This document shows positions 2,918-25,905 of a stretch of DNA of 26,049 nt, in pieces. A program made the position numbers and the translations under genes. Position 1 is the first letter of the stretch; each line of letters starts with the position of its first letter. The notes under the pieces were generated by a model. It was not told the origin of the DNA. It ran no database searches and saw only the letters and a list, made by a program, of their open reading frames with translations. Origin of the DNA: Dialister sp. (GTDB lineage: Bacteria; Bacillota; Negativicutes; Veillonellales; Dialisteraceae). Where the stretch lies: NCBI GenBank assembly GCA_022722495.1, contig JAIJLI010000010.1, forward strand, positions 1 to 26,049, in the 5' to 3' direction.

Positions 2918-3062
2918 ATGGTGGTGCTCCAAAGACAGAAAACCAAGGAATATGGCGAAATATTTTTGGAAAGCCCAAATCTCTGATTTGTGGAAGGAGT
3001 TCCAAAAATATTTTTCCATATAGTGGCAGTGCCAGGTCCTTGGAGTCTGTCTGCGCCGCCAT
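2918..3062. repeat. 145-nt covarying hairpin (copy C)
   Basis: Pairings: ATGGTGG 2918-2924 with CCGCCAT 3056-3062; AGACAG 2933-2938 with 3047-3052; CCAAGGA 2943-2949 with 3037-3043; ATATGG 2950-2955 with 3016-3021; a perfect 14-bp helix 2958-2971 with 3000-3013; CAAATC 2976-2981 with 2985-2990. Relative to copy B several pairs change on both sides (T-A to A-T in the ATnTGG helix; C-G to T-A in the 10-14 bp helix; G-C to the wobble T-G in the outer helix). Confidence 0.7.
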
Positions 3063-3070
3063 AACTTTGC
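3040..3070 (+). promoter_or_regulatory. Promoter inside repeat copy C, reading right
   Basis: TTG 3040-3042 and TAACTTTGC 3062-3070 with a 19-bp spacer, identical in design to 1234-1264. No plus-strand gene lies downstream. Confidence 0.65.
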
Positions 3071-5125: not shown

Positions 5126-5680
5126 TTATAAATATCTAGAACCTTCATTCAGGAATATACATTCAATCTGGCTTTCCGTCCGGATTTTAGGAGTAGTCAG
5201 CTTCTCACCATCCAGTTCTCTGAGAAAGTCAGGCGTTCTCCACCATTTCTTTACATCTTCGATGGAAGAACCGGTGTCAGCGGCACATTGTTCAATATCC
5301 TTTGACATAGGATTTTGGAATCTCCAGAAGCAGATTTTCGGTGCGGACTTAGATAGGGTAAGTTCACCCAGGAGAGACTTATTTTCCAACCAGCTTTCAT
5401 AAGGCGGCAAGATATCCTCCTCGTCTTTCATCTTCTCAACGTCGTCCACCTCATCAAGTATATCTGCTTCATCAATATCACGTTCCTCATCCATATACCA
5501 GTCGAGGAATGTCTTGGCAGAGTTCTCGTTATCATCCAAGCCTTTCTTGGCGATAAAGTGTAGATATCTCTCGGTCATATTATCGGATGCATGTTCAATC
5601 AGCTGACTGGCAGTTATCTGTTCATCCTGATAATAGACCAAGAGAGTATCGAAGTCATAATTGTTGCCTTCAAGAATCAT
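5126..5680 (-). CDS. Hypothetical acidic protein, 184 aa
   Basis: Unrecognised, strongly acidic soluble protein beginning MILEGNNYDFDTLLVYYQ. The central part (residues ~65-90) is almost entirely Asp/Glu-rich, and a WW-containing C-terminal segment (DVKKWWRTPDFLREL) could be a small helical domain. No signal peptide or membrane segment. ATG at 5680, 15 bp after the stop codon of the DUF4099-like gene, so it is almost certainly co-transcribed with it from the promoter at 6446-6454. Acidic proteins next to mobilisation genes are sometimes DNA mimics or chaperones, but nothing here proves that. Confidence 0.65.
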   Translation of the reverse strand: MILEGNNYDFDTLLVYYQDEQITASQLIEHASDNMTERYLHFIAKKGLDDNENSAKTFLDWYMDEERDIDEADILDEVDDVEKMKDEEDILPPYESWLENKSLLGELTLSKSAPKICFWRFQNPMSKDIEQCAADTGSSIEDVKKWWRTPDFLRELDGEKLTTPKIRTESQIECIFLNEGSRYL

Positions 5681-5695
5681 AAGTAAAAAATATGG

Positions 5696-6427
5696 TTATC
5701 TGCCCATGGCAGCACTACGTTTATTTTTCTGTGCAATCTCACTCTGGATATCCTGCATTTCATCAGTATAATCCTCCTCATTGACGTAAGAGAGATTATT
5801 GTTCTCATCGTTAACCCAACAGCCATAGATACCGAAGGAGTAGCGAGGAAGCTTGTTTTCATTGAGATTTTTATCCAGGCTGTTACCCTTGGACATCTTG
5901 ATACCCTTTTCCTCCGAAAGATCAACGCTGTATGTGACACATCCCTGATCCTTTGTAAAGGTGATAACTTCTCCGGTAGAAAGCTGTTTGGCAGACTCCT
6001 CGGGAACGCCCACCTGCTTGGTAAGAATTTCAAGATTATGCTCAATAACGCTCTTAGGGCATGAGACAATCTGGTTCGTAGTCTCATCAAGCTGGTAATA
6101 CATATCCGGTTTTCCTTCAAAGGAAGCGAGTAATACCTTACCGCTTCTGAGAGTTTTCTGCTGTTCCTCATCAAATCCTTCCATATTAATATGGCTGAAA
6201 TAAGGCATGACGAAAACATCCACCCCAGCATTTGTTCTTACAAGTGAAATCCTGGCTTTTCCTTTCTTGTCATCGATGTTGAAAGGCAGGACTGGCGTTC
6301 TTCCACCTGTGAGAAGGCTTTCTATCACATTTTCCGGGAGATCATCAACCATTTCCTGTGAAAGGCCATGCTCACTTAATATCTCGTATGGAATCTCATC
6401 CATAGTAAAATTTTCCTTTTTTCTCAT
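5696..6427 (-). CDS. DUF4099-like mobile-element protein, 243 aa
   Basis: Residues ~8-75 (DEIPYEILSEHGLSQEMVDD, then a LLTGGRTPVLPF motif) resemble the DUF4099 N-terminal domain of proteins found on Bacteroidetes conjugative elements. Residues ~90-180 contain YYQLDETTNQIV and GEVITF, in the style of the repeat units that follow DUF4099 (DUF3945-like). The family often precedes topoisomerase or mobilisation genes, but its biochemical role is unknown to me. At 243 aa this is shorter than many DUF4099/DUF3945 proteins. ATG at 6427; leftward operon with 5126-5680; divergent from the transfer operon. Both promoters in the shared spacer carry the same upstream element, implying joint control. Confidence 0.6.
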   Translation of the reverse strand: MRKKENFTMDEIPYEILSEHGLSQEMVDDLPENVIESLLTGGRTPVLPFNIDDKKGKARISLVRTNAGVDVFVMPYFSHINMEGFDEEQQKTLRSGKVLLASFEGKPDMYYQLDETTNQIVSCPKSVIEHNLEILTKQVGVPEESAKQLSTGEVITFTKDQGCVTYSVDLSEEKGIKMSKGNSLDKNLNENKLPRYSFGIYGCWVNDENNNLSYVNEEDYTDEMQDIQSEIAQKNKRSAAMGR

Positions 6428-6445: not shown

Positions 6446-6454
6446 GCAAAGGTA
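6446..6454 (-). promoter_or_regulatory. -7 box of the DUF4099-like operon
   Basis: TACCTTTGC on the minus strand matches TAnnTTTGC. No TTG lies at the -33 position, but the 20-bp element at 6494-6513 is exactly 39 bp upstream, so activation by a DNA-binding protein is likely. Confidence 0.7.
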
Positions 6455-6493
6455 CGCTTAATAAAGCGGAAAGCAGAATAAAAAAGGCACAAC

Positions 6494-6513
6494 CTTTTAT
6501 TTTAACACTTTCA
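6494..6513 (-). promoter_or_regulatory. Conserved 20-bp upstream element (copy 1)
   Basis: Plus-strand CTTTTATTTTAACACTTTCA; 39 bp separate it from the -7 box of the leftward promoter. It is identical to 19696-19715 (with flanks, 26 bp are shared) and to the inverted copy at 6549-6568. Its centre falls near -60 from the inferred transcription start, the usual place for a class I activator site. Confidence 0.7.
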
Positions 6514-6548
6514 AGAGCAAAACCATCGTTTTATGTCAAATTACTTTA

Positions 6549-6568
6549 TGAAAGTGTTAAAATAAAAG
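6549..6568 (+). promoter_or_regulatory. Conserved 20-bp upstream element (copy 2)
   Basis: TGAAAGTGTTAAAATAAAAG, the reverse complement of copy 1 and facing the rightward promoter. The gap to TACCTTTGC (6608) is again exactly 39 bp. Confidence 0.7.
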
Positions 6569-6607
6569 CTAGTGTCTTAAAAATGCCCTCTTTAAATGAT
6601 TAAATAG

Positions 6608-6616
6608 TACCTTTGC
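6608..6616 (+). promoter_or_regulatory. -7 box of the transfer operon promoter
   Basis: TACCTTTGC, a perfect TAnnTTTGC match, 23 bp before the ATG at 6640. There is no TTG at -33. The predicted leader is very short. Confidence 0.75.
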
Positions 6617-6639
6617 ATATTAATTAAGGTGTTGTCAAG

Positions 6640-7647
6640 ATGAAAACAAGAAAGATTGCAAAGTTGATAATAATGATTTATCTACTTGTACCACAGGTCG
6701 TTAACGCTCAACAAAGAGAAAACGACCAAGACTATTGGATAGACAAGTTCTTCAGTGTGAGCTTTCCATTGAAGAGTATCAAGGTCAACTCAGCCTTCGG
6801 GATACGTTCAGATCCATTCTCCGGGAAGCATAAGCGGCATAACGGTTTGGATCTGAAAGCCAGATACGAGGAAGTGCTCAGTATGTTTGACGGTCTGGTA
6901 GAAGCAACAGGTAGTGATAGAGGTTCTGGGAAATATATAGTCATGAGATATGGCGTATATATGGTAAGCTATTGCCATTTATCCCAAATCTGGGTAAGAC
7001 AGGGACAAGCAGTACTGGCAGGAGACGCAATAGGCGTAAGTGGCAATACAGGTCGTTCAACCGGTCCGCACCTGCATCTGACAAGCAGGTATCATGGTCA
7101 GCTTGATGATCCTATCAATCTGCTCCTGCATATCAGGGAAACGCGCAAGAAGGCACTGAAAGCATTGAATCTTGATGGTGACAATCTTTCCACCCCGGAA
7201 GATTTCATCCGCCGATATGCCGACATAGCGATGCGTCAGCAGAAAAAGTACGGAATCCCGGCATCAGTCATTCTGGCTCAGATGGCTTATGAGAGTGGAT
7301 GGGGAAGCAGCGACCTGGCGCAGAAGGGCAATAATTATTTCGGCATCAAATGCAACAGCAACTGGTTGCGTCAGGGACTTCCATACAGCCTACATAACGA
7401 TGACCGTCCCAACGAGAAGTTCTGCAACTTCTCCTGTGTAGAAGAGGGAGTAGAGTACCATACAAGGCTACTGATGAGTGACCGGTATGCCCGGTGTTGG
7501 AGATACGGCCCAACAGACTATCATAACTGGCTTAAGACCATCAAGGCTTCCGGCTATGCGACCCGAAAAGACTATGTATCACGCTGTGAGAAAATCATAA
7601 AGAAGCACAAGCTGTATATTTATGACCAGAAAGCGTTGAAGATATAA
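6640..7647 (+). CDS. Peptidoglycan hydrolase: M23 endopeptidase fused to glucosaminidase, 335 aa
   Basis: Exported cell-wall hydrolase. A signal peptide (residues 1-23, ending VNA) is followed by an M23/LytM metalloprotease domain (~45-160) with the expected zinc and catalytic residues: H67 and D71 (HNGLD), H113 (YCHLS), H144 and H146 (GPHLH). Residues ~187-330 form a FlgJ-like GH73 glucosaminidase domain with catalytic E218 in AYESGWG and the NYFGIKC motif. The protein could thus cut both peptide and glycan bonds. First gene of the rightward operon; in transfer systems such enzymes open the wall for the secretion apparatus, the role played by VirB1-type proteins. That role is inferred from context. 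Confidence 0.9.
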   Translation: MKTRKIAKLIIMIYLLVPQVVNAQQRENDQDYWIDKFFSVSFPLKSIKVNSAFGIRSDPFSGKHKRHNGLDLKARYEEVLSMFDGLVEATGSDRGSGKYIVMRYGVYMVSYCHLSQIWVRQGQAVLAGDAIGVSGNTGRSTGPHLHLTSRYHGQLDDPINLLLHIRETRKKALKALNLDGDNLSTPEDFIRRYADIAMRQQKKYGIPASVILAQMAYESGWGSSDLAQKGNNYFGIKCNSNWLRQGLPYSLHNDDRPNEKFCNFSCVEEGVEYHTRLLMSDRYARCWRYGPTDYHNWLKTIKASGYATRKDYVSRCEKIIKKHKLYIYDQKALKI

Positions 7648-7692
7648 AAGAAGAAATAAACAAAAAGTTATACATTAATATATATATAAATA

Positions 7693-8877
7693 ATGAAAAA
7701 GAAATTATCGTTGATTTTAGGAGCAGCCTTTGTCTGCAGTCTGGCAAATGCCCAGGTATATGGTGATGACGAGAAGGATTACATCAAGTATTCCCAGAAT
7801 ACACCTGTAGTATTGGCAAATGACAATGCCAAGCCATTCTTCTCCGGTCAGGAGAAGTTTCATCTGTCATCCTTCTCTTCCAACTGGTTTGTATCCGTCA
7901 AGTCCGGCATATCCATCTTCAATGGAGTACCCCTTGGATGTGATGACATGTTCGGAAGAATCAAATATATGTTCTCTGCAAGTGCAGGAAAGTGGCATTC
8001 TCGTTTCTTTGGAACCAGGATAGCCTATCAGGGGTTCAATTTTGACAACTGCAACGGAAAGAGTATGGACTACCAGAATCTCCATGTAGATATTCTGTAC
8101 AATCTCAGCAGTTACTATCGAGACAGCTATGCCACCCTACCCCGATGGGATTTCGTACCATACGTGGGAGCAGGAATCATGAGAAATTCCACTGTAGGAA
8201 ACAGACCATTTGCCTTATCATACGGAGCAATGGTAAGTTATCGAGTAGCAGACAGAGTGCATGTGACCGCCGAATTGGGCGGAACTTCTACCTTCCAGCA
8301 TTTTGATGGAGTTGGAAATGAAAAGCATTTCGGAGATGACCTCTTCCAGGCAAGCATCGGACTTACTGTTGATCTAGGCAAGCAGGGCTATGAAGCCAAG
8401 AAGTCACTGGGCGTTCTCAATACAGGAGATATGGGAACGGTCACGGATCTCACCAGACATCCAAAGAATGACTACAAGGGACTCAACGACCTTCGCAAGA
8501 GACTTTCCGATGAAGAAGCAGCAAGGCTTAGCCAAAATAACGGTTATGCAGACGGCATCAAGTCTCCAATACTCTTCTTCTTCAAGATCAATTCAACCAA
8601 TCTCGTAGATAAGCAGCAGAAGGTTGAAATTGGTGAGATTGCCGCCGCTGTCAACAAGTATGACCTAAAAGTGAGGATTGTCGGAGCAGCAGACAACAAG
8701 ACCGGCAAGCCAGGCTACAACCGCAAGCTGAGTGTGAAGCGAGCAAGATATATAGCCAAGCTGCTCATAAGGGCCGGAGTCTCTAAGGACAGAATGACAG
8801 GTTCAAGCCAGGGAGGTATTAATATATACAAGCCTTATACGGCAAACCGTCATACCTGCGTAATTCTCTACAAGTAA
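7693..8877 (+). CDS. OmpA-family outer-membrane protein, 394 aa
   Basis: Signal peptide (MKKKLSLILGAAFVCSLANA, residues 1-20). Residues ~60-230 alternate hydrophobic and polar residues with many aromatics, as in an OmpA-type beta-barrel. Residues ~285-394 match the OmpA C-terminal peptidoglycan-binding domain (ILFFFKINSTNLVDKQQ, then GAADNKTGKPGYNRKLSVKR). It likely spans the outer membrane and grips peptidoglycan. It lies 45 bp after the wall hydrolase and before the Bax-inhibitor gene in the same operon, so it may anchor or stabilise the transfer apparatus; this is inference. Confidence 0.85.
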   Translation: MKKKLSLILGAAFVCSLANAQVYGDDEKDYIKYSQNTPVVLANDNAKPFFSGQEKFHLSSFSSNWFVSVKSGISIFNGVPLGCDDMFGRIKYMFSASAGKWHSRFFGTRIAYQGFNFDNCNGKSMDYQNLHVDILYNLSSYYRDSYATLPRWDFVPYVGAGIMRNSTVGNRPFALSYGAMVSYRVADRVHVTAELGGTSTFQHFDGVGNEKHFGDDLFQASIGLTVDLGKQGYEAKKSLGVLNTGDMGTVTDLTRHPKNDYKGLNDLRKRLSDEEAARLSQNNGYADGIKSPILFFFKINSTNLVDKQQKVEIGEIAAAVNKYDLKVRIVGAADNKTGKPGYNRKLSVKRARYIAKLLIRAGVSKDRMTGSSQGGINIYKPYTANRHTCVILYK

Positions 8878-8888
8878 CAATTAACAGC

Positions 8889-8919
8889 GTCCTCTTCCTG
8901 CACAAGCAAGGGAGAGGAC
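8889..8919 (+). terminator. Intercistronic hairpin before the Bax-inhibitor-1 gene
   Basis: GTCCTCTTCC (8889-8898) pairs with GGAGAGGAC (8911-8919), with one mismatch or bulge. The sequence after it is A-rich, not T-rich, so it looks more like an attenuator or mRNA-stabilising hairpin that sets expression of genes after ompA than a full terminator. Confidence 0.45.
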
Positions 8920-8935
8920 ATAAAAATATAAAGCA

Positions 8936-9643
8936 ATGGAACAGATACAGTATGACAGTATCGGTAGATACCATAGTTTCAGTAGTGTTTACACTAATCT
9001 GATGAGCAAGGTGTTCACCTGGATGACATTTGCGCTTATCATTACAGGGGTTACAGCCTATGGGGTAGCTACCACTCCTACCTTTCTGAGAACCTTGTTT
9101 ACGAGCAATTCGTTGTTCCTTGGGCTTCTCCTAACCCAAATGGTTCTGGTCTTGGTGCTGAATGCAGTATTGAACAGACTGTCGGTCGTAATGGCAACAT
9201 TTCTCTTCATTCTCTATTCCGTTTTGAACGGAGTGCTGTTGTCAGGCATCTTTGTACTATATAGCATGGCAAGTATTTTCAAGGTATTCTTTATTACAGC
9301 AGGAACATTTGGTACAATAGCATTATATGGTTATTGTACCCGTAGGAATCTAGCCTCTATGGGGAAGATTCTCTTCATGGCTCTTATCGGTTTGGTAATA
9401 GCCACGGTAGTAAATCTGCTTATGAAGAGTAGCGGATTGGAATATATTATCAGCTATGTGGGAGTGGTTGTCTTTTCAGGTCTCACGGCATGGGACATGC
9501 AGAAGATAAAGAGGCTTCTTCAACGTGAATATGAAGACAACGAGAGTACACAAAAGATGTGTCTTCAAGGAGCAATGACACTCTATCTTGATTTTGTGAA
9601 TCTCTTTTTGAACTTCGTGAAAATTCTTGGAAACAGAAAATAA
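8936..9643 (+). CDS. Bax inhibitor-1/YccA-family membrane protein, 235 aa
   Basis: Integral membrane protein with seven hydrophobic segments over residues ~25-230. Family signs are the MTFALIITGVTAY segment near the N-terminus, the SVLNGVLLSG helix, the YDMQ-like TAWDMQKIK motif, and the C-terminal GAMTLYLDFVNLFLNFVKIL helix. Family members form pH- or calcium-sensitive channels or bind proteases such as FtsH (YccA). Its length (235 aa) is typical. It sits inside the transfer operon, 22 bp before the 854-aa gene, which is an unusual place for a housekeeping-type protein; it may protect or tune membrane quality control during assembly of the apparatus (inference). Confidence 0.9.
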   Translation: MEQIQYDSIGRYHSFSSVYTNLMSKVFTWMTFALIITGVTAYGVATTPTFLRTLFTSNSLFLGLLLTQMVLVLVLNAVLNRLSVVMATFLFILYSVLNGVLLSGIFVLYSMASIFKVFFITAGTFGTIALYGYCTRRNLASMGKILFMALIGLVIATVVNLLMKSSGLEYIISYVGVVVFSGLTAWDMQKIKRLLQREYEDNESTQKMCLQGAMTLYLDFVNLFLNFVKILGNRK

Positions 9644-9665
9644 CAATAACTAAAATTTAAGAGAT

Positions 9666-12230
9666 ATGACATATATCGGAGTAAACAGCTACCCAAGACA
9701 GCTGGATGTAGCCCCAGAGCTTCGTAGAACGCTAGAGGCAAATGGAATGCAAGCCCACATTGGGCGCACAGAACGTGGAACCTATCAGCTCATAACCATG
9801 AGCCATGACAACAAGATTCCACATTATTACGATTTGACAGACAGACAACTGGCAGACCTGGTGAATCAGGGAACAAACAACCTGAACAAGAAAGCCTATA
9901 CAACGTTTGTCAATCTTGTTAAGAAAGACTATCATGTTCCAGAGTCATGGGTTGCTGCAAAAAACGTCAATTCTCCTGTGAATATGGGACTTTTTGGATA
10001 TACACTCTCGCCTGGCGAATATGGAATTGGAAGTCCATACCGATTCAGACCATTCCACGGATCCTGCTTTGGTCCCTTCGACGGTTGTTTCCACGGAGTG
10101 AACCTCAGAAGAGTCGGTGGTTCACTTTTCTATGATGATCGTCGTTATATCGTTGGAGAGAGACCCGACGGACGAATGGTTGCCGGAGAGTTGAAGTCGG
10201 GATCCTATGGATTCTACTCCAAGCCGGAACAGAAGAATGATGTTCTATCAAATATCAAGGTAGCGGAAAAGAAGGCAAAACCTTTTGCAATGACAGACGA
10301 GGAGAAGAAGAAGGTCACTTGTCTGAAAAATATCACCTGGTATCAGAACGGTCTAGGTTGGGCAACAGGAGATACCATCAATAGCATGCTATCCACCCAT
10401 GGGCTTGAACTCAACGAGAAGGACAAGACCTTGACCGTCAAGGCTAAAGGATCCACCAAGGCGTTTGTCTATCACCTTAGTGATGATGACGCAACGATTC
10501 TTTTCAACCAGAAAATCAAGGTGGAAACCAAAAAGGGCAAGATCATAAATGAAAAGGACGGCAATAGCCTTGACGAACGTCTCCACTGCATTAACAACAT
10601 CATCAAGGAAGACTTTGATGACAAGGTTACAGCTGCAAAATTGAACGAGCGTGACTATATCTCCCTCAAACTCAACGAAAAGAATCAGCAGCAGCAGTTA
10701 GCCGAGGAGCAGCCACAGCAAGCCATGGGCGCAGGTAATGATATCATAGACTTTACGGCTTCAAGAGAGGCTTACCGCACCGGTTTCATAGACCATTGGA
10801 ACTCCATTGGTGTTGTTGATGGTCGCCAGCTTGATGAGACTAAGGGCTTTTATTTGCCTACCAAGGGTGGCAGAGCCGTGAGTGTCGGAGAAATCCAGGT
10901 CTATCCATCAAGTGACGGTGTTGACAGAGGGCAGACCTATAAGATGACAGCAGTCATCAACGAGAAGGTCTTTACACATGATATCAGCAAGGAAGACTAT
11001 ATGAAGTTTCTGAACTATGATGACGAGCATCGTCTGGAGCTTTTTGACCGTACTTTCAAGGAAGTGCAGATCAAGTCATCCAAGAATGGACCTTTGACAG
11101 ACCCGTTCCGTTCCGATCGTCTTGATAATTCCCAGACAGCAACCAAGCTTGAAGGAAATTACTGTTTCGTCGTTGGAAAGGAAGCAACGACCATCACTTC
11201 TGCCACAGCCTGGAAAGATGAGGTCTCCGGCAACTATACACTTAATGTCAGAGACGGCAAGGATGCCGGAATGTGGTCATTCAAGATTACCGAGGCCCAG
11301 TATCTTGCCTTCAAGAAAGCAGGTTCCTCAGATAAGGCACAGATGTTGGCAACCTTGATACCATGGAACGAGCAGTTCAAGGGTAATGTTCGTGTAGTAG
11401 CGACACAAGACCTTCACCGTCCTTTAGGTACCTTACAAGCTAACGGAACCCAAAAGGAAATTCGTCCAGAGGTTCTGGAAGAACTTAAGGCCAAGGGAAT
11501 GGGGTATGTGCCTAAAGAGTTTGCAGCACCCAAGAACCCACAGGACGCAAAAGTTTCAGAGCCAGACAAGTCAAATCAGACTGATAACGCAAAGGAGCAG
11601 AAAGGTCAAACTATTCCACCATCAGCCAATGATTATCAGGTAAATATAAATGGCGAGAATCTGAACTTGAACGATATCCGTGCCCAGACCCGAAAGAACC
11701 TTCTTGGAGACGCACAGGTAAACGGCGAGTCCCTGGATAACATCAAGGAGAGTAAGGAATGGAGACGTTCCGGAGAAAATGGACGTTCTACCGAGATTGG
11801 AGATATAACTGTTGAGAAGCTGCGGGATGCAGACGGCAAGCCTATCGAGGGAAAATACGTCATGTCCGCAGTCATCGATGGTAATGTTGTGAGCCATGAA
11901 ATCAATCAGAAGCAGTATGACAAGTTCCTTGTCGTCAACGATTATCAGCGAATGAAGCTCTTTGACAAGATCTTCCCGGAGGTGGAAATGAAAACAAAGG
12001 AAGGAAGAGGCTTAAATCTGGGAGCTGCCATTCTTGCTGCAGTAACGGTAGGTGTTGGAGCAGCAGCCATGATGTCACGAAGAGACCACTCCGGACCAGA
12101 TATATATATGGATGTGTACTCCAAGCCTGGAGTTGTTTCTCCTGGAGCCGTTGCGTCAGCCCTTTATGAGGATAAGCTGCAAAGAGATATGGAAACTGGA
12201 ATGTCTCATGGTATGGGAAGAGGCTTTTAG
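9666..12230 (+). CDS. Large repeat-containing protein of the transfer operon, 854 aa
   Basis: Unrecognised large protein without a signal peptide. Residues ~1-200 form an N-terminal region with a Gly/Phe/Cys-rich stretch (~130-150). A module of about 95 residues occurs twice, at 383-475 and 684-782, with the shared pattern VGEIxV...YxMxAVI...HxI...YxKFL...LFDxxFxEV. A weaker version may lie at ~520-575. Residues ~620-655 are a polar linker. A single predicted membrane helix (784-803, GAAILAAVTVGVGAAAMM) is followed by SRRD and a ~50-residue tail. It therefore looks like a cytoplasmic repeat protein anchored by its C-terminus. Position before the PH-domain and coupling-protein genes suggests a structural or substrate-handling role; no function is known to me. 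Confidence 0.7.
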   Translation: MTYIGVNSYPRQLDVAPELRRTLEANGMQAHIGRTERGTYQLITMSHDNKIPHYYDLTDRQLADLVNQGTNNLNKKAYTTFVNLVKKDYHVPESWVAAKNVNSPVNMGLFGYTLSPGEYGIGSPYRFRPFHGSCFGPFDGCFHGVNLRRVGGSLFYDDRRYIVGERPDGRMVAGELKSGSYGFYSKPEQKNDVLSNIKVAEKKAKPFAMTDEEKKKVTCLKNITWYQNGLGWATGDTINSMLSTHGLELNEKDKTLTVKAKGSTKAFVYHLSDDDATILFNQKIKVETKKGKIINEKDGNSLDERLHCINNIIKEDFDDKVTAAKLNERDYISLKLNEKNQQQQLAEEQPQQAMGAGNDIIDFTASREAYRTGFIDHWNSIGVVDGRQLDETKGFYLPTKGGRAVSVGEIQVYPSSDGVDRGQTYKMTAVINEKVFTHDISKEDYMKFLNYDDEHRLELFDRTFKEVQIKSSKNGPLTDPFRSDRLDNSQTATKLEGNYCFVVGKEATTITSATAWKDEVSGNYTLNVRDGKDAGMWSFKITEAQYLAFKKAGSSDKAQMLATLIPWNEQFKGNVRVVATQDLHRPLGTLQANGTQKEIRPEVLEELKAKGMGYVPKEFAAPKNPQDAKVSEPDKSNQTDNAKEQKGQTIPPSANDYQVNINGENLNLNDIRAQTRKNLLGDAQVNGESLDNIKESKEWRRSGENGRSTEIGDITVEKLRDADGKPIEGKYVMSAVIDGNVVSHEINQKQYDKFLVVNDYQRMKLFDKIFPEVEMKTKEGRGLNLGAAILAAVTVGVGAAAMMSRRDHSGPDIYMDVYSKPGVVSPGAVASALYEDKLQRDMETGMSHGMGRGF

Positions 12231-12259
12231 CCTCTCCCCTTCCCCAAAAATAGATATTT

Positions 12260-12772
12260 ATGAGTTTAAATCAATCCAACTGCTTTCAGTCTTTGGTACT
12301 CCGTCCCCACTGGATTCAGTTTTTCATCAACGAGTTGTTCATCTTGATACTGACGATAGGCTGTTTCTATCTTGTTTATTTCGGTGAAGCAACAATAGGT
12401 CGAAGTGATTATTTCAGCATACTGCTGATTCCGGGAGTGTTGCTGTTGTTCTATTTAGTATGCAGAGCTATCTATATGTTCCGTATGGTTTATGTCATCA
12501 CCCCAGAACAGTTGATTCTGCTTAGGGGAATACTGTCGCATTCTACAGACTATGTAGAGCTATATAGAATAGTTGACTATCAGCAGCACCGAACCTTTCT
12601 GCAACAGATTTTTGGACTGAAAGATGTCATCATATACACTGGAGACAGAAATAACCGGAAAGTGATAATGACAGGGGTAAGAGAGTCCATTGATGTAGTA
12701 TCTGAATTGAGAATCAGAGTAGAGTTTAACAAAAAGAGACGAGGAATTTATGAATTTACGAATCAATCTTAA
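12260..12772 (+). CDS. Bacterial PH (bPH2/YdbT-type) domain membrane protein, 170 aa
   Basis: Two adjacent membrane helices (about residues 20-42 and 50-72) are followed by a bPH2 domain at ~76-155 with the typical YVITPEQLILLRGILS start, an ELYRIVDY segment, and FLQQIFGLKDVIIYTGD. Such proteins sit in the inner membrane with the PH-like fold in the cytoplasm; their ligands are mostly unknown. ATG at 12260. The 3' end overlaps the next gene by 23 bp, showing translational coupling. A PH protein in a transfer operon could be a small scaffold near the coupling ATPase (inference). Confidence 0.8.
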   Translation: MSLNQSNCFQSLVLRPHWIQFFINELFILILTIGCFYLVYFGEATIGRSDYFSILLIPGVLLLFYLVCRAIYMFRMVYVITPEQLILLRGILSHSTDYVELYRIVDYQQHRTFLQQIFGLKDVIIYTGDRNNRKVIMTGVRESIDVVSELRIRVEFNKKRRGIYEFTNQS

Positions 12773-13457
12773 GTATTTTGCCTTGACACTGCTCCTGTCT
12801 TTCGGTTGCAGCGTCAAGGCCGGTGTGACGGAATCAAATCCTGGAGAAATAGCAGCTCTCACCAAGGGAGAAGACATGGTAAACGGAACAATATCCAAGC
12901 AAATAGTAGATCAGGATGCCAACACAGTAAAAGTAGGAACCCTATTTTTACCGATATCAGTTATGAAGAAATGGGAGCGTAATTATATGAATTACCTTGA
13001 AAAGGGATATAATTATGCAAGTACAGTATTGGCATGTAGCAGTCTCTATGCAGACGGAGTAAGAACATTCATGAACCTCATAGAGTTAAACAAGGCTTTA
13101 TCCCATAACCCACAGGGACCATTTGCATCCATTTCTATGACCAACATCTATATGGAAGTGGCGACGGAACTTGTTGAAGTATATAAGTTAATAAAAATAG
13201 CTACCGGTCCAAGTAACATGAACCTCTTGACTGGTTCTGAACGGTCACAGATTCTCTGGTATCTCTCCCAGAAATTGGAGTCTCTCAACAAGAAGCTTCA
13301 CCATCTTGCACTCTGTGTTTCCATATATTCCTTCCAGGATGTATGGAATCAAGCTACGCTGGGTATGGCCGAAAAGTCACATGGTCAGATAGCAAGGGAA
13401 GCTTTCGGACGAATGAAGAATGCTTGCTATGCCTGTAATGCGTTATATAGACAATAA
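12750..13457 (+). CDS. Exported transfer-operon protein, 235 aa (related to the next gene)
   Basis: N-terminal signal peptide (LKYFALTLLLSFGCSVKAG, residues ~8-26; the FGC has a poor lipobox so a type I cut after VKA is more likely). The mature part is mostly helical. The C-terminal third (about residues 165-200: TGSERSQILWYLSQKLESLNKKL, then SFQDVW) resembles the matching part of the following gene and, loosely, the helical periplasmic TraI/VirB5-like proteins of Bacteroidetes conjugation systems. It starts inside the PH gene and ends 2 bp before the next gene. The VirB5-like idea is tentative. Confidence 0.55.
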   Translation: MNLRINLKYFALTLLLSFGCSVKAGVTESNPGEIAALTKGEDMVNGTISKQIVDQDANTVKVGTLFLPISVMKKWERNYMNYLEKGYNYASTVLACSSLYADGVRTFMNLIELNKALSHNPQGPFASISMTNIYMEVATELVEVYKLIKIATGPSNMNLLTGSERSQILWYLSQKLESLNKKLHHLALCVSIYSFQDVWNQATLGMAEKSHGQIAREAFGRMKNACYACNALYRQ

Positions 13458-13459
13458 AG

Positions 13460-14197
13460 ATGAAAAGGATGAGAAATAAATACATATATATAAGTATTGT
13501 GTTACTTTTCCTGTTGCCATCAAGGATATCTGCAGGAGTAGATCCGACCAGAGCTGCTGCCTTTGCAACAATAGCAGCAGCCGCATCCAAGGTGAACATC
13601 GCACAGGATGCAGTGATAACATCCCAGTTGGGTGCACATATCGTATTAAACAATGAAGTAAAGAAAGTCACGAATTTCAAGAGAAAATTCAATGAATATC
13701 TCAGTACTTACAATGATATTCTTGCTCTGGCAGCGCAGCTTTATGGAGTCTATTATGAGATAGATCTTGCCATTACCAATGTTCGAAATTTGAAGACTGT
13801 AGTTCTGAAGGTTCCAGAGAATGTATTGGCCGTGTCAATCATAGACAAGAAGAACTCTATCTACAACAATATTCTTAAAACAGGAATAAAAGTTGCCGGT
13901 GACATAGAATCCGTACTTCCTTATCACAAGGATCCCGAAAAAAATCCTAAGATGACACAGAAAGAGCGAATCATGGCAATAGGAAAGATACGAGCATCTT
14001 TACGTAGAATGAATCTTCTGATGTACAATCTTTGCCGATCCATCAAATACACCACGCTGATGGATGCATGGTATTACTATAGTAAGCATCATCCAGCAGG
14101 AGCATCTACAAGACCTATGGCAGATATAGTGTCAGAGTGTCAGAAAAGGTGGATAGATAATGCAAGAGGAGCAAACAAATATAACACAAGAAAATAA
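13460..14197 (+). CDS. Exported helical transfer-operon protein, 245 aa (paralogue of the preceding gene)
   Basis: Signal peptide (YIYISIVLLFLLPSRISAG, residues ~7-25) followed by an Ala-rich helical segment (RAAAFATIAAAASKVNIAQ) and long helices. The section TQKERIMAIGKIRASLRRMN then TTLMDAWYYY lines up with SERSQILWYLSQKLESLNKK then SFQDVW of the previous protein, so the two are probably diverged duplicates. The overall plan (signal, helical hairpin, ERxxxI motif) is like DUF4141/TraI-type proteins of Bacteroidetes conjugative transposons, but I cannot confirm it. It lies 8 bp before the coupling ATPase gene. Confidence 0.55.
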   Translation: MKRMRNKYIYISIVLLFLLPSRISAGVDPTRAAAFATIAAAASKVNIAQDAVITSQLGAHIVLNNEVKKVTNFKRKFNEYLSTYNDILALAAQLYGVYYEIDLAITNVRNLKTVVLKVPENVLAVSIIDKKNSIYNNILKTGIKVAGDIESVLPYHKDPEKNPKMTQKERIMAIGKIRASLRRMNLLMYNLCRSIKYTTLMDAWYYYSKHHPAGASTRPMADIVSECQKRWIDNARGANKYNTRK

Positions 14198-14205
14198 AAA
14201 AATAT

Positions 14206-16419
14206 ATGGAAGAATCAAAGGAATTACAGGGAATGTACACCTTTTTCCGTTCGATGATATACGTCTGGCTGTTAGGCGAATTTTTCATGTATGCACTTGA
14301 CCCGACTGCTTTGGATTTTCTTGGCGGTCTGGTTGTTGACATACATAACAGAATGGGAACCTGGGGAGTCTATAAGTTCCTGCCATATTGCAAGGTTGCC
14401 AATCTCATGCTGGTAATCATTACCTGCATCGGAACAAAGAACAAGAAGCAGCTGGAGTTTAACGCAAGAAAAATGGTCTTTATGCCATTAGGCATAGGCC
14501 TGTTACTTGTTATGCTTTCCGTCTTCGTCTATAACCTTGACAGCAATTCAAGAATCTGGATATTGAAGACTAACCTCTGGATTTATATGATATTTTCACT
14601 CTTGGGAATCATCCTTATTCATGCAGCCTTGGATAATATCTCAAAGTATTTCAAGGACGGAATGCTGAAAGACCGATTCAACCTGGAGAACGAGAGCTTT
14701 GAACAGACAGATGAACTTGTTGACAACAAATATTCCGTCAACATTCCTATGCGCTATTATTACAGAGGTAAGTTTCGCAAGGGATGGATAAACATCGTAA
14801 ATCCTTTCAGAGGAACATGGGTTGTAGGTACACCGGGTTCCGGTAAATCCTTCTCAGTTATTGACCCGACCATACGTCAGCACAGCAAGAAAGGCTTTGC
14901 CATGGTTGTCTATGACTATAAGTTCCCTACCCTGGCGACAAAACTATACTACCATTACCGTAAGAACATGGCGCAAGGCAATACGCCTAAAGGATGTAAG
15001 TTCAATATCATCAACTTCGTCGATGTAGAATACTCCAAGAAAGTCAATCCTATTCAGCAGAAGTATATCGGCAACCTTGCTGCTGCCCAGGAAACGGCAG
15101 AGACCCTTATTGAATCACTCCAGAAGGGTCAGAAAGGTAATGGCGGAAGTGATGACTTCTTCCAGAAATCAGCAACCAACTTCCTCGCAGCATGTATATA
15201 CTTCTTTGTCAACTACAACAAGAAACCATACGCCAAGGATGGAACGGAACTTGTAGCTGAGTATATGACAGACGAGGAGACAGGTCATAAAAGACTGACA
15301 GGAAGAGTCTTTGCAAAAGGCGTTCCAGGAGTTCAGGTTGAGCCGGAATACTGGAAGGGGCAGTATTCAGATATGCCTCATGTACTGTCTTTTTTGAATC
15401 ATGACTATCAAGAGATTTTCGAGGTATTGGAAACAGACCCGGAAGTATATCCTCTCTTGGGTCCATTTATGACCGCCTTCAAGAATAAGGCGATGGAACA
15501 GTTGGAAGGTATGATTGGTACTCTTCGTGTGCAGACTTCACGTCTGGCCACAAAGGAGTCATATTGGGTATTCAGCGGTGACGATTTCGACCTTAAGGTC
15601 TCAGATCCGCATAATCCAAGCTATCTGCTCATTGCCAACGATCCGGAAATGGAAAGTATCAACGGAGCCTTGAACGCACTTATTCTGAACCGACTGGTAA
15701 CACGAGTAAACAGTGGACAGGGCAAGAATGTTCCGGTGAGTATCATTGTCGATGAGTTGCCGACTCTCTACTTCCACAAGATAGACCGTTTGATAGGTAC
15801 AGCCCGAAGCAATAAGGTAGCTGTAACACTCGGCTTCCAGGAGCTACCGCAGCTGGAGGCAGACTACGGAAAGGTAGGTATGCAGAAGATCATCACCACG
15901 GTAGGTAATGTAGTCAGTGGCTCAGCACGAGCAAAGGAGACTCTTGACTGGTTGTCCGGCGACATATTCGGTAAGGTGGTGCAGCTTAAGAAGGGAATCA
16001 CTATCGATAGAGATAGAACATCCATCAACCTGAATGAGAATCTTGACAGTCTCGTTCCAGCTTCTAAGATTTCCGATATGCCGACCGGTTGGATATGCGG
16101 CCAGACAGCACGCGATTTTACCGTAACTAAACTGGGCCGTCGCGATTCCATGGATATTCTGACAACAGAAGAGTTCAAGACAACAAAGTTCTACTGCAAG
16201 ACCAACTTTGATATGGATGCCATCAAGGCAGAAGAGGAAGATTACAAGAACTATCCTCTGCCAAAATTCTACACCTTCAAGACACCGGATATGAAGGAAC
16301 GAACCTTGTACAACAACTTCAACCGTATCGATCAAGAAGTTAAGGACATGATACTTACCATCCAGCAGCAGCAGAAAAAGACGAATAAAGACAGTGAGAC
16401 AAACGGAAATCAAAAATAA
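14206..16419 (+). CDS. Type IV secretion coupling protein, VirD4/TraG family, 737 aa
   Basis: Inner-membrane DNA-pumping ATPase that links the relaxosome to the secretion channel. Four hydrophobic segments occupy about residues 10-30, 60-80, 88-108 and 121-140. The ATPase part has a Walker A motif GTPGSGKS at 208-215 (preceded by NPFRGTWVV) and a Walker B VSIIVDELP with D516/E517. The region after it (IGTARSNKVAVTLGFQELPQLE, GSARAKETLDWLSG) is typical of the TraG/VirD4 C-terminal domain. At 737 aa it resembles the MobC/TraG proteins of Bacteroidetes mobile elements. Last gene of the rightward operon, ending 15 bp before a strong terminator. No relaxase or VirB4 is in the window. Confidence 0.9.
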   Translation: MEESKELQGMYTFFRSMIYVWLLGEFFMYALDPTALDFLGGLVVDIHNRMGTWGVYKFLPYCKVANLMLVIITCIGTKNKKQLEFNARKMVFMPLGIGLLLVMLSVFVYNLDSNSRIWILKTNLWIYMIFSLLGIILIHAALDNISKYFKDGMLKDRFNLENESFEQTDELVDNKYSVNIPMRYYYRGKFRKGWINIVNPFRGTWVVGTPGSGKSFSVIDPTIRQHSKKGFAMVVYDYKFPTLATKLYYHYRKNMAQGNTPKGCKFNIINFVDVEYSKKVNPIQQKYIGNLAAAQETAETLIESLQKGQKGNGGSDDFFQKSATNFLAACIYFFVNYNKKPYAKDGTELVAEYMTDEETGHKRLTGRVFAKGVPGVQVEPEYWKGQYSDMPHVLSFLNHDYQEIFEVLETDPEVYPLLGPFMTAFKNKAMEQLEGMIGTLRVQTSRLATKESYWVFSGDDFDLKVSDPHNPSYLLIANDPEMESINGALNALILNRLVTRVNSGQGKNVPVSIIVDELPTLYFHKIDRLIGTARSNKVAVTLGFQELPQLEADYGKVGMQKIITTVGNVVSGSARAKETLDWLSGDIFGKVVQLKKGITIDRDRTSINLNENLDSLVPASKISDMPTGWICGQTARDFTVTKLGRRDSMDILTTEEFKTTKFYCKTNFDMDAIKAEEEDYKNYPLPKFYTFKTPDMKERTLYNNFNRIDQEVKDMILTIQQQQKKTNKDSETNGNQK

Positions 16420-16434
16420 AAGCATAAATTTAAA

Positions 16435-16469
16435 AAGAGAGGTGATCAAAATTTTTGATCACCTCTCTT
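16435..16469. terminator. Bidirectional rho-independent terminator
   Basis: A perfect 17-bp inverted repeat (16435-16451 and 16453-16469, arm AAGAGAGGTGATCAAAA) with one central base. It lies between the convergent coupling-protein and LRR-protein genes and can serve both. Confidence 0.85.
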
Positions 16470-16497
16470 GCTATAATAGAAACAACGAAAGATTATG

Positions 16498-18936
16498 CTA
16501 GTTTTTCTGAACCATAAGCTTAAGAGAATATTTGCCTACTTTTATAATAACCAGTGACTCTGATACCGCACAAGAAGCAACACCATCTACAGCAGAAGAA
16601 GATCCTATGAGTTGACCATCAACAGTAAAGAACTTAGCTGTCTCGCCGGTTTTGAGTCCATAGACGGTAACTATTCCCCTATCTGCAGAAGTCATGATTC
16701 CACGAGTTTCAACGTGATTGATGTTTGTAGCATCCGCTTCATTGCCGAGCCAATATAAAGTTGCTTCTGCTGTTTCTGAAAGTCTATAGCCTTTTGCAGA
16801 AGCATATACAGATATGTTGTAGGCAGCAGTAAGAGAAACCTTACCTTCCTTATTGGCAGCTTTATTGACGATATCATCATCTGTTATGGTATAGTGATAT
16901 TTTACTCCTGGAGTATCACAAGAGAATCCGACTTCACCATTCTCATACGAAATAGAAGGAGTAGCACACTGTTCGGTAGCATATTCATCAGAATCATCAG
17001 GATTCCAGGCTTCCAGATACCTGTAATCAGAACTCAGTTCTTCTTTGTATGTATCAAGATGCTCATTTGGCACCATAATACGGCAAGTAGTAGGAATCTC
17101 CGCATCAACGATACCAATAGGCATAGCTCCCTTGAAATATAACGTATCGAGATTGTTGCAGTTCTTGAAGCAACTTACTCCTAGTTTAGAGACACTAGTT
17201 TGAAGGGTTATAACAGACAGTTTCTCACAACCTGAAAAACTATTATCCCTAAAGGAAGTTACACTCGAAGGAATTGATATAGAAGACAAATTACTACATT
17301 CTTTGAAACAGCCTTCTCCAATTTCCTTTACCCCTCCAGGAACAACGACATTTCTCAGTTTCTCACAACCACTGAAGCAGTTCCAACCTATTTTTATAAC
17401 TGTAGATGGAATATTTACAGAAGATAATCTGGCACATCCAGCGAAGCAATTATCTCCCAACTCAACCATTCCAGAAGGGATATCCACAGAAGTCAATCTT
17501 ATACATCCCTTGAAGCAATTGCTCGGCAAACTACTTACACTCGAAGGAATGGAAACAGAAGTCAAGCCGCAGCATCCTGCAAAACAGCTATCGTTCAATT
17601 CGGTTACTCCAGCAGGTATCGATACAGAAGTCAGTCCTGTACATTCCGCAAAGCTGCTCCATCCCAACTCTTTCACTCCTGCAGGAATGGAAACAGAAGT
17701 CAGTCCGCTACAACCATAGAAGCTGCTTTCACCTATTTTAGAAACACTTGACGGTATTTTGATTGTTGTCAGATTGCTGCATCCTGCAAAACAACTATCT
17801 TCCAACACTTCAGCACCAGGTAAGATAGTCACAGAAGTCAATTTCTTGCAGCCAGAAAAGCACTTTTTCGAAATCTTGGCAATACTTGAAGGAATTTCGA
17901 TAGAAACCAAATTGTCACAGCCATTGAAGCAGTTATCTCCTACGAGTACTACAGATGCAGGTATCGTTCCGGAAGTCAGTCCAGTGCAACCTGAGAAACA
18001 TCCCTTTCCAAATTCAGTAATCCCGGCTGGAATATCAATAGAGGTCAGTTTGCTGCATCCTTTAAAACAGTTCTCGCCGAACTTAGTAACAGATGATGGA
18101 ATTTTAATAGAGGTCAAATTGGCACACTCAGCAAAGCAATTATCTCCCAGTTCCCTGACTCCAGGCTGAATGATAACGGAAGCCAGATTTTCACATCCAC
18201 TAAAACAACTCTCCAGTTTGTTACCACCAGAAGATACTGTAATGGAAGTTAAACGGCTACACCCGGAGAAACTGTTTTTTCCTAGATTTGTTACCGAAGA
18301 AGGGATGGTTACCATACTTAAGCTGCTGCAATTTGAGAAGCAGTTATCTCCCATAGTTGTTACGCTTGAAGGGATTTCAATGGAAGCTATCTTAGTACAT
18401 CCGGAAAAGCAGTTATTCCCCAAGACTTTAACACCATTTCCAATAGTTACAGATATAAGTCCTCTACATTCATTAAAGCATCCATCACCTACTTCCTTCA
18501 CTTCCGAAGGGATAATGATACCAGAAAGTTTCTCACAACCACCGAAGCAGTTCCAGCCAAGCTTATTAACAGTAGAAGGAATTGTAACGGAAGTCAGTCC
18601 GCTGCATCCGGAGAAACAATTGTCGCCCAATTCTGTCACGGTATATTCTATGCCATTAGTATCCTTAACAGAACCAGGAATAGCTATTCTACCAAAATAG
18701 AGACTGGATTTTGGCAGTACCGTCGCCGTTTTAGTTTCCTGGTTAAGGGCATAGCGGATTTCATTAATTACTGCAAAACTTGTTTTTGCCAACGAGGTAC
18801 TTGTTGTAACTATCATCATAATTACCACTAAAAGGAAGCTCTTGAAAGAGCAGGAAACATCTAGATTTTTACCCAGGTGTTTCTTTCTAATCATGTAATT
18901 TACCATAAAAAATATATTTTGTTGTTTAATTGCCAT
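16498..18936 (-). CDS. BspA-type LRR_5 surface protein, 812 aa
   Basis: Exported leucine-rich repeat protein. A hydrophobic signal segment (FKSFLLVVIMMIVTTSTSLA, about residues 32-51) is followed by 22 repeats of ~23 aa with consensus xNCFSGCxxLTSVxIPSSVxxLGx (residues ~105-620). Most repeats keep CFxxC, giving a ladder of about 40 cysteines. Repeat 7 is shortened (NKLESCF). The C-terminal ~170 residues (from ATPSISYENGEVGFSCDTPG) look like an immunoglobulin-like/FN3-style domain plus a tail. Known BspA proteins bind host proteins or other bacteria; that role is inferred. Starts at 18936, 18906 or 18894 are possible; 18936 leaves a leader of only ~13 nt after the inferred transcription start. 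Confidence 0.85.
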   Translation of the reverse strand: MAIKQQNIFFMVNYMIRKKHLGKNLDVSCSFKSFLLVVIMMIVTTSTSLAKTSFAVINEIRYALNQETKTATVLPKSSLYFGRIAIPGSVKDTNGIEYTVTELGDNCFSGCSGLTSVTIPSTVNKLGWNCFGGCEKLSGIIIPSEVKEVGDGCFNECRGLISVTIGNGVKVLGNNCFSGCTKIASIEIPSSVTTMGDNCFSNCSSLSMVTIPSSVTNLGKNSFSGCSRLTSITVSSGGNKLESCFSGCENLASVIIQPGVRELGDNCFAECANLTSIKIPSSVTKFGENCFKGCSKLTSIDIPAGITEFGKGCFSGCTGLTSGTIPASVVLVGDNCFNGCDNLVSIEIPSSIAKISKKCFSGCKKLTSVTILPGAEVLEDSCFAGCSNLTTIKIPSSVSKIGESSFYGCSGLTSVSIPAGVKELGWSSFAECTGLTSVSIPAGVTELNDSCFAGCCGLTSVSIPSSVSSLPSNCFKGCIRLTSVDIPSGMVELGDNCFAGCARLSSVNIPSTVIKIGWNCFSGCEKLRNVVVPGGVKEIGEGCFKECSNLSSISIPSSVTSFRDNSFSGCEKLSVITLQTSVSKLGVSCFKNCNNLDTLYFKGAMPIGIVDAEIPTTCRIMVPNEHLDTYKEELSSDYRYLEAWNPDDSDEYATEQCATPSISYENGEVGFSCDTPGVKYHYTITDDDIVNKAANKEGKVSLTAAYNISVYASAKGYRLSETAEATLYWLGNEADATNINHVETRGIMTSADRGIVTVYGLKTGETAKFFTVDGQLIGSSSAVDGVASCAVSESLVIIKVGKYSLKLMVQKN
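17080..18640 (-). repeat. ~69-bp tandem coding repeats of the LRR protein
   Basis: Twenty-two units of about 69 bp, each containing words such as GAAGTCA, GAAGGAAT and AAGCAATT in the plus strand, encode the LRR_5 repeats. They are coding, not a CRISPR array: units keep the reading frame, drift gradually and have no constant repeat with unique spacers. Long plus-strand frames opposite them are a by-product. Confidence 0.8.
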
Positions 18937-18955
18937 TAAATGATGCTATATTTCT

Positions 18956-19023
18956 GCAAAGGTACAAAAAACAAGTGACAGAAAACTAGAAAAAATACAC
19001 AACTTCTTATTTAGCGATTTTCA
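18956..19023 (-). promoter_or_regulatory. Promoter of the LRR gene with a weaker copy of the upstream element
   Basis: TACCTTTGC on the minus strand (18964-18956). At exactly the same 39-bp spacing lies TGAAAATCGCTAAATAAGAA (19023-19004), which keeps TGAAA and AAATAA of the element found before three other promoters (13 of 20 bases on direct alignment). No -33 TTG. Confidence 0.5.
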
Positions 19024-19042
19024 AAGAATCAAAATATTTGTC

Positions 19043-19606
19043 TTATAAATCCTCCCCATTGGCATGATTGTATTCATTATCATAGCACATACAAATGCCG
19101 TACTTTCCATAACTTTCACAAATTCTAAACCATACAGGTTTCATAAACATCATTTCCCTATTTTCCATATTGGGAACTTGATAAAACACCGCTTCATACT
19201 TCTTTTTGTTAACAGTCATTTCATACGAAATGTTCTCCTCATCAGACAAAGTGTATTTATCAAGCGGAATGTACCGTTTGTTATGTTCAAATTGGCTCAC
19301 AAGGTTATTGAAACGTATTTTTATTTGGGCTTCATCCACAGGATTTTTATCAGCAAGCATGATTCTATAAACCTTATTCTTGTTTGTGAAGATACGTACA
19401 CCAACATCAGTTCCATTAAATTCACCTTCTAACCATTCAAGGTCACCCATCTTCTTAGGAACAAACCCTTTGGCTATTAACTTCTGTTTCATTTCTGTCT
19501 TTGTACCATCCACAGGTATTCCAAGAAATTCTGTCACGTCTTTGTTTTGTGCGAATGAAGCAAATGATATTGTCATTGCTATCATCATTAAAATAATCTT
19601 TTTCAT
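19043..19606 (-). CDS. Small exported protein of unknown function, 187 aa
   Basis: Signal peptide (MKKIILMMIAMTISFASFAQ, cut after FAQ or SFA). The mature protein starts NKDVTEFLGIPVDGTKTEM; the segment FLGIPVDGTKxEMxxKLxxKGF recalls small exported Bacteroidales proteins of unknown function. The remainder is a mixed alpha/beta domain with the YEAVFYQVP strand and a Cys-containing end (CMCYDNEY). The frame reaches a TTG at 19612, but ATG at 19606 starts a standard signal peptide. It has its own promoter with the shared upstream element, so it should be expressed with the transfer operon despite lying beyond the LRR gene. Confidence 0.7.
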   Translation of the reverse strand: MKKIILMMIAMTISFASFAQNKDVTEFLGIPVDGTKTEMKQKLIAKGFVPKKMGDLEWLEGEFNGTDVGVRIFTNKNKVYRIMLADKNPVDEAQIKIRFNNLVSQFEHNKRYIPLDKYTLSDEENISYEMTVNKKKYEAVFYQVPNMENREMMFMKPVWFRICESYGKYGICMCYDNEYNHANGEDL

Positions 19607-19647
19607 AATCAAAGACTTGACCGTGTTGTCGAGGGCTTAATTTTATT

Positions 19648-19656
19648 GCAAAGGTA
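19648..19656 (-). promoter_or_regulatory. -7 box of the 187-aa exported protein gene
   Basis: TACCTTTGC on the minus strand, 41 bp before the ATG, with no TTG at -33. The 20-bp upstream element lies exactly 39 bp further upstream. Confidence 0.7.
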
Positions 19657-19695
19657 TATATAAATATTGGGAGTCCATCATTTTACAAGTACTAC

Positions 19696-19715
19696 CTTTT
19701 ATTTTAACACTTTCA
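19696..19715 (-). promoter_or_regulatory. Conserved 20-bp upstream element (copy 3)
   Basis: Plus-strand CTTTTATTTTAACACTTTCA, identical to 6494-6513; identity extends to 26 bp with flanks (19694-19719 and 6492-6517). Same orientation and distance (39 bp) relative to the -7 box as the two copies near 6500. Confidence 0.7.
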
Positions 19716-19799
19716 AGAGAAAACAACAAAGAAACACAACAAATTAAGTTAATATTAGTGTATAGAAACAATCATTCACACATATAATAAAGGAAACAC

Positions 19800-25872: not shown

Positions 25873-25905
25873 GCAAAGGTACAAAAAAGTATTTTATCAC
25901 CCAAA
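25873..25905 (-). promoter_or_regulatory. Consensus promoter of the leftward accessory group
   Basis: On the minus strand TTTG (25905-25902), a 20-bp spacer, then TACCTTTGC (25881-25873): a complete Bacteroidetes-type promoter. Unlike the promoters at 6446, 6608 and 19648 it has a good -33 box and no clear copy of the 20-bp upstream element, so it is probably constitutive. Confidence 0.8.

Follow-up and report, generated by a model that had tools for sequence, protein, structure and literature searches.

A site at a fixed distance upstream of the -7 box and a predicted transfer regulon in Prevotella-type conjugative elements

We analysed a 26,049-nucleotide (nt) stretch of DNA listed under Dialister sp. 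(assembly GCA_022722495.1, contig JAIJLI010000010.1, positions 1 to 26,049; hereafter the window), which carries the transfer operon of a conjugative element. A 20-mer, TGAAAGTGTTAAAATAAAAG, is present in exactly three copies, each 39 base pairs (bp) 5' of TACCTTTGC, and related elements keep the same spacing with diverged motifs. The arrangement probably reflects a transfer regulon that is turned on by an element-encoded activator bound near -61, replacing the -33 contact. The 20-mer would be this element's version of the site for one activator of conjugative plasmids and integrative and conjugative elements (ICEs) of Prevotellaceae, centred near -61 at promoters that have a primary-sigma -7 box, TAnnTTTG or nearly so, and for the most part lack a -33 element. 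Keeping to one distance and one face of the helix, the activator would contact RNA polymerase in class I geometry and jointly switch on the mobilisation/relaxase, tra, coupling-protein, cell-wall hydrolase, helicase and topoisomerase operons, together with some passenger genes.

Sites and spacing in the window and in related elements

In dinucleotide-shuffled sequence, the mean number of matches to the 20-mer at up to three mismatches was 0.03, and none of 100 shuffles reached the three found in the window (P1-P3, Table 1). P1 and P3 share 26 bp when the flanks are counted. The box TACCTTTG occurs five times in the window, three times with an exact site, once with a version identical at 15 of 22 positions and once without a site; six window positions reach 15/22 identity, three of them being the exact copies. 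The promoter with the 15/22 version, P4, was also picked up by a motif-agnostic in-register comparison of -7-like boxes, and all four window sites lack the -33 TTTG of sigma-ABfr promoters, with no TTG at spacer 17-24. Averaged over these four sites, identity between the 40-nt spacers is 45%, and the equal spacing is therefore not the by-product of a recently copied promoter. The original prediction had described three copies at exactly 39 bp from their boxes, the absence of TTG near -33, 26 bp shared by two copies and a spacing hardly explained by chance, all of which hold; its regulon of three promoters is supported as well, but was drawn too small, P4 and the operons of the relatives having to be added.

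Relatives were gathered by protein. They comprise pE2-28 (pE) of Prevotella sp. E2-28, a 205-kb plasmid and the one among named plasmids in which the coupling protein and the divergent DUF4099/glucosaminidase gene pair are both present; the contigs c5 (G001:C5, CAMUYR010000005.1), c1 (G002:C1, CAMAHD010000001.1), G366:C49, G176:C1 and G357:C51; and the pE2-28-like contigs L008-L011. Six Prevotella-type conjugative elements were compared, namely pE2-28, four contigs and one chromosomal insertion, that of G176, which was taken as chromosomal because its contig spans 3.27 Mb. The G366 and G176 elements are near-identical, most of the proteins that they have in common matching at 92-100%; their coupling protein shares 81% identity with that of the window. 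A glucosaminidase search of genome contigs gave 36 loci, seven of which (L007-L013) match most of the query, the other 29 matching its M23 part only; the loci L014-L040 and L004-L006 hold one GTTAA-N47-box in all, which is about chance. At 1e-60, the glucosaminidase was matched in 4 of 399 genomes of G001's family and in 1 of 61 of G366's genus, and the elements are therefore uncommon in the sample. The same query found no relative among viral contigs. The Segatella copri plasmid NZ_CP085933 has the top coupling-protein identity among plasmids (82%), yet what it holds is a remnant (residues 117-728, no annotated gene) adjoining a transposase gene, with no site found there, and it was set aside.

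At the divergent DUF4099/glucosaminidase pair, GTTAA is followed at exactly 47 nt by a -7-like box on both strands in pE2-28, L008-L011, c5, c1, G366, G176 and G357, and the window obeys the same rule (8 nt of the 20-mer after GTTAA plus 39 nt to the box). Motif models trained on each element's divergent pair alone gave 37 strong matches, defined as scoring above about two thirds of the maximum and including 14 training sites (window 3, pE 4, c5 10, c1 6, G366 5, G176 5, G357 4). A box of at least 5/6 stands at exactly 47 nt in 35 of these 37, or 21 of 23 when the training sites are excluded; the remaining two, both in c1, have TTCCTTCG and TAATTTCA (4/6) at 47 nt. Lower-scoring matches mostly lack such a box. 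With the gap left free between 30 and 60 nt and near-duplicate elements included, TT[TC]G stood at the expected gap in 19/20 class B, 8/8 class C and 13/13 class A cases (the classes are defined below), and at other gaps only three times. The null, for which gapped core patterns were taken from viral contigs (at least 120 stretches each), showed no peak at that gap: unrelated viral loci, 120 per class among the matches listed, gave 1/123, 1/127 and 1/124 pairs.

Six further sites were found by motif in four contigs not previously read, two of the sites being pE2-28-like and four lying in G002 on contigs homologous to c5. In four of the six, a box scoring 5/6 or better stands at 47 nt, and the other two have TTCCTTTA and GAACTTCG (4/6) at that distance. 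The spacers are otherwise 34-51% identical on average. The cores of the divergent sites lie 33-34 bp apart in pE2-28, c5, c1 and G357. In the window, G366 and G176 they are 54-55 bp apart, roughly two turns of the helix more, yet the distance from site to box is constant. Run on the related elements, the proposed check for motif copies at random distances from promoters found strong copies keeping one distance from a -7-like box. A protein that sits near -61, constant in distance and phase, at promoters most of which have no -33 element, has the geometry of class I activation, and, as judged from sequence, the fixed upstream distance and phase of a class I activator-dependent promoter are present here. 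The proposal of a regulon with an upstream site in the class I position is supported in that the spacing is preserved in six other elements, the motifs of which have diverged. From this we infer binding, activation and class I contact.

The core alone, GTTAA-N47-TAnnTTTG, is too short for use on whole genomes, because it gave 70 matches vs 27 reversed-control matches in 12 genomes. Besides the elements, a Bacteroides ovatus plasmid, G380 and G343 were positive in the motif-agnostic in-register test on account of other repeats, and the test is therefore not specific. The repeats that it listed include a direct repeat of about 90 bp in the window (1166-1263 and 2972-3069, + strand), each copy of which ends in TAACTTTGC and is unrelated to the site. 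In the B. ovatus plasmid, NZ_CP103211 (L121), five promoter regions (1766, 4395, 5496, 6474 and 10254, + strand), each about 90 bp long and nearly identical to the others, end in TATATTTG with TTTG upstream. The relaxase-bearing contig G343:C64, which also encodes the winged-helix protein discussed below, has several TACCTTTG promoters (20899, 25075, 37322 and 40131, + strand; L159-L161) after another shared sequence about 30-50 bp upstream, possibly a different promoter-linked repeat.

Table 1. Predicted sites, -7 boxes and downstream genes in the window (ORF, open reading frame; aa, amino acids)
Feature	Position	Strand	Remark
P1 site, exact 20-mer	6494..6513	-	upstream of DUF4099-like gene
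P1 -7 box TACCTTTG	6447..6454	-	39 bp past 20-mer; no TTG 17-24 bp upstream
P2 site, exact 20-mer	6549..6568	+	head of transfer operon
P2 -7 box TACCTTTG	6608..6615	+	39 bp past 20-mer; no TTG 17-24 bp upstream
P3 site, exact 20-mer	19696..19715	-	sequence match
P3 -7 box TACCTTTG	19649..19656	-	39 bp past 20-mer; no TTG 17-24 bp upstream
P4 site, degenerate, 15/22 identical to P1/P3, in register	19003..19024	-	recognised partly through its box
P4 -7 box TACCTTTG	18957..18964	-	no TTG 17-24 bp upstream
Contrast TACCTTTG box	25874..25881	-	TTTG 20 bp upstream, no site
Genes downstream of P1: DUF4099-like protein (5696-6427), 184-aa protein (5126-5680)	5126..6427	-	ORF start 20 nt past box
Genes downstream of P2	6640..16419	+	ORF start 25 nt past box
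Gene downstream of P3: 187-189-aa protein, signal-peptide-like start, no Pfam match	19043..19612	-	
Gene downstream of P4: 812-aa leucine-rich-repeat (BspA-type) protein	16498..18936	-	

The operon downstream of P2 encodes an M23/glucosaminidase protein, OmpA, Bax1-I, an 854-aa protein, a bacterial PH protein, two more proteins and the type IV secretion system coupling protein. Its Bax1-I gene (8936-9643, + strand), which encodes a BI-1 family membrane protein inside a transfer operon, has relatives in c5 and c1. The length of 187 aa given originally for the exported protein downstream of P3 is right when counted from ATG; the ORF list starts two codons earlier, at TTG. Further Pfam matches in the window are a fimbrillin-like protein and several helix-turn-helix (HTH) proteins after the leucine-rich-repeat protein.

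Motif classes, regulon content and association with elements

The tag sequence falls into three classes, and the distance is the same in all of them. Class A comprises the window (TTGAAAGTGTTAAAATAAAAG) and G366/G176 (TTGAAAATGTTAATATAAGAG), class B comprises c5, c1 and G357 (TAAAnGnGTTAAATCAAGA), and class C is that of pE2-28 (CGTGAAnnGTTAATTCACG), a near-perfect inverted repeat with 9/10 pairs. Promoter features were counted over 38 sites from six elements, G176 being omitted as a near-duplicate of G366. The -7 box is TACCTTTG at all four window sites and TAnnTTTG or a variant (TTnn, GAnn, TTCG) in the relatives, and TTG is absent at spacer 19-21 in 32 of the 38 sites. A T 16 nt before the box, present in 34 of the 38, is the most conserved position between motif and box (next-best T, 24/38); in the window it lies at 6592 (+), 6470 (-), 19672 (-) and 18980 (-), separate from both.

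The same site stands at several transfer operons of one element in pE2-28 and in c5. In pE2-28 it is found at a divergent pair between the mob-to-coupling-protein operon and topoisomerase 3 (93803/93774), at OmpA (97865), at the tra operon (80125) and within it (71365), at an operon ending in a helicase gene (156393), at the DUF4099/glucosaminidase pair (140454/140425) and at a hypothetical gene (136065). The ten sites of c5 include those at tra (27410), helicase (47035), the divergent pair, topoisomerase (137252), mob (110288) and OmpA (102298). An ORF starts 16-61 nt past the box at 28 of the 38 sites; at the other ten, the start is called further upstream, not called, at 0 or at 372 nt. The helicase-related gene, the first or last of a regulon operon, forms one uninterrupted frame in four elements and encodes very large proteins, with 10,646 codons in G001:C5 (47118-79058; L080, L081), 7,176 in G002:C1 (26507-48037), about 5,500 in G357:C51 (8555-25063) and 3,234 in pE2-28 (143522-153226).

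A search of eight genomes with the class motifs, allowing two mismatches at most, gave 58 matches (12, 28 and 18, vs 0, 3 and 3 for reversed-pattern controls). Of these, 37 had no more than one mismatch, and all 37 lie on element contigs (G366:C49, G176:C1 within the element, G357:C51, G001:C5/C70, G002:C1/C39/C83, G003:C40/C153, G004:C225, G005:C60 and G006:C31), G002:C39 and C83 being counted as such through homology to c5. With at most one mismatch, the class motifs are thus not scattered over the genomes searched; scattering at random distances from promoters was what the original prediction had named as refuting it. The 21 two-mismatch matches include 9 on element contigs. A sequence two mismatches from the window 20-mer, TGAAAGTGTTAAAAACAAAG, occurs in G366 at C21 27407, C24 61, C27 60 and C38 48; three of these four copies lie within 80 bases of a contig start, and they are perhaps repeated sequence. 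In viral contigs, the exact 20-mer was found in two contigs only, once in an ORF and once in an unrelated phage-like region, and was taken as chance.

Alternative explanations and the regulator

Sites shared by several operons suit any common regulator, and they could also be operators of an element-encoded repressor that silences all transfer promoters, the distance then arising from shared descent or from a repressor that traps polymerase. Genes of HTH_3/M78 and XRE type are present on such elements. However, a repressor has no need of an exact spacing at -61, most of the promoters lack a -33 element, and the XRE HTH protein of pE2-28, which we rejected as regulator, has no match in c5, c1, G366, G176 or G357; we consider a repressor unlikely. 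With no more than a candidate for the regulator gene, a host-encoded activator might also read the sites. The matches with at most one mismatch are nevertheless all on element contigs, and in one metagenome-assembled genome (MAG), G001, there are elements of two classes, B (C5) and C (C70), with MAG binning as a caveat. Two motif classes in one MAG therefore favour element-specific, element-encoded regulators, and a host activator is quite improbable.

An UP-like element bound directly by the C-terminal domain of polymerase alpha would suit the position upstream of -50 and the A/T-rich right half of the site in the window. Such an element is very improbable, given that the site has a specific sequence that changes from one class of element to another and, in pE2-28, is not rich in A/T. 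Copies within one element can be identical over 20-30 bp, for which recent copying of promoters or chance would account, but the spacers are as diverged as described, the downstream genes differ and the distance persists in elements with diverged motifs, so that this explanation is hardly credible.

Several observations weigh against an element-encoded activator acting at a fixed distance. Twelve of the 21 two-mismatch matches lie on contigs not known as element, and TTTG is present at spacer 19-20 in 6 of the 38 sites. A clear inverted repeat is seen only in pE2-28, the best centres of the other elements reaching 6-7 pairs. P4 and five weaker pE2-28 sites were accepted with help from their boxes and therefore cannot count as independent evidence for the distance. 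The arrangement is missing from Bacteroides-type plasmids whose coupling proteins are related: loose core matches number 0 in NZ_CP103211, 2 in NC_006297, 1 in OY725996 and 0 in 26 kb of NZ_OY725768 (Bacteroides/Phocaeicola/Parabacteroides plasmids), and none resembles a motif class. G380 and G343 carry the regulator candidate described below and a relaxase, with no such site in 100 kb and 40 kb, respectively. The Segatella copri plasmid NZ_CP085933 has the top coupling-protein identity among plasmids (82%), yet what it holds is a remnant (residues 117-728, no annotated gene) adjoining a transposase gene, with no site found there, and it was set aside.

For 36 ORFs of pE2-28, not all of which were scanned, c5 and G366 both gave matches; a 110-aa protein (95800-96132) was the sole one of them with a recognised transcription-factor-like domain. 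The protein, of 110-130 aa across elements, has weak winged-helix Pfam matches and is encoded upstream of the relaxase, near which it is found in 6/6 elements whose mob operon is covered; the window excludes that operon. Its AlphaFold2 model (predicted local distance difference test score 76) has the helices and wing of a winged-helix fold. The best Foldseek matches are ArsR/SmtB-type regulators (probability 0.9-1.0; E 0.004 and weaker, none at or below 0.001), Rep- and centromere-binding proteins being also among the matches, and only two weak matches to the PDB were obtained by sequence. In the predicted recognition helix, the two residues before a conserved F are KK in c5, c1 and G357, SR in pE2-28 and MK in G366; the pair appears to track the motif classes, which is only suggestive with so few classes. 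A winged-helix profile matched 33 of 399 genomes, and loci were followed in G001, G176, G343, G357, G366 and G380. The occurrence of the protein without the site in G380 and G343 would also fit a relaxosome protein. The winged-helix protein of the mob operon is the best regulator candidate, although a weak one, and we would sooner expect the regulator to be another protein.

Other candidates were rejected. Two conserved genes upstream of tra had no Pfam match at E 1, the LytTR protein of pE2-28 was not among the ORFs common to c5 and G366, and the conserved lipoprotein-, membrane- and other proteins of the mob operon, together with a 202-aa protein, were dropped on reading of the alignments. 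Returning to the element-encoded activator, we can tentatively imagine, as a possible but doubtful extension, that a single activator governs the entire transfer programme in this family of Bacteroidota conjugative elements. It might be the winged-helix protein encoded with the relaxase, itself under the site (positive feedback); the target word would vary while the 47 nt stay frozen, and co-resident elements would each answer only their own activator.

Comparison with known systems

Among the papers listed for the subject in open-licence PubMed Central, we found no description of such a regulon or of transfer switching in large Prevotella conjugative elements. The site, the distance and the short gene list make transfer switching in Prevotella elements directly testable, the fixed distance provides a strong filter for transfer regulons in Bacteroidota metagenomes, and motif classes with constant geometry offer a natural experiment on the joint change of activator and site.

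Sigma-ABfr promoters of Bacteroides, known from a transcription start map of B. thetaiotaomicron, combine a -7 TAnnTTTG with a -33 TTTG; the -7 box is identical in the promoters of the elements, which differ in mostly lacking the -33 element and in carrying instead a conserved site some 47-60 bp before the box (PMC7366714). RdfS, a winged-helix protein of ICEMlSymR7A, binds to the promoter of an ICE and is required for transfer, but it is a recombination directionality factor, and no consensus site is apparent for it (PMC11963761). The excisionases of CTnDOT are described as moonlighting transcription factors for conjugation functions in Bacteroides, an example of small DNA-binding proteins of a Bacteroidota conjugative element that control its transfer functions; by contrast, no multi-operon site at a fixed distance appears in the part of their description used here, and the candidate proposed here is encoded in the mob operon (PMC9956884). 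AcaCD of IncA/IncC plasmids, with responsive promoters that are also found on SGI1, governs a multi-promoter transfer regulon and, likened by description, offers the same scheme of one element-encoded activator for several transfer-related promoters, although it consists of FlhDC-family proteins of Gammaproteobacteria, and the regulator of the Prevotella-type elements is a candidate only (PMC7826253).

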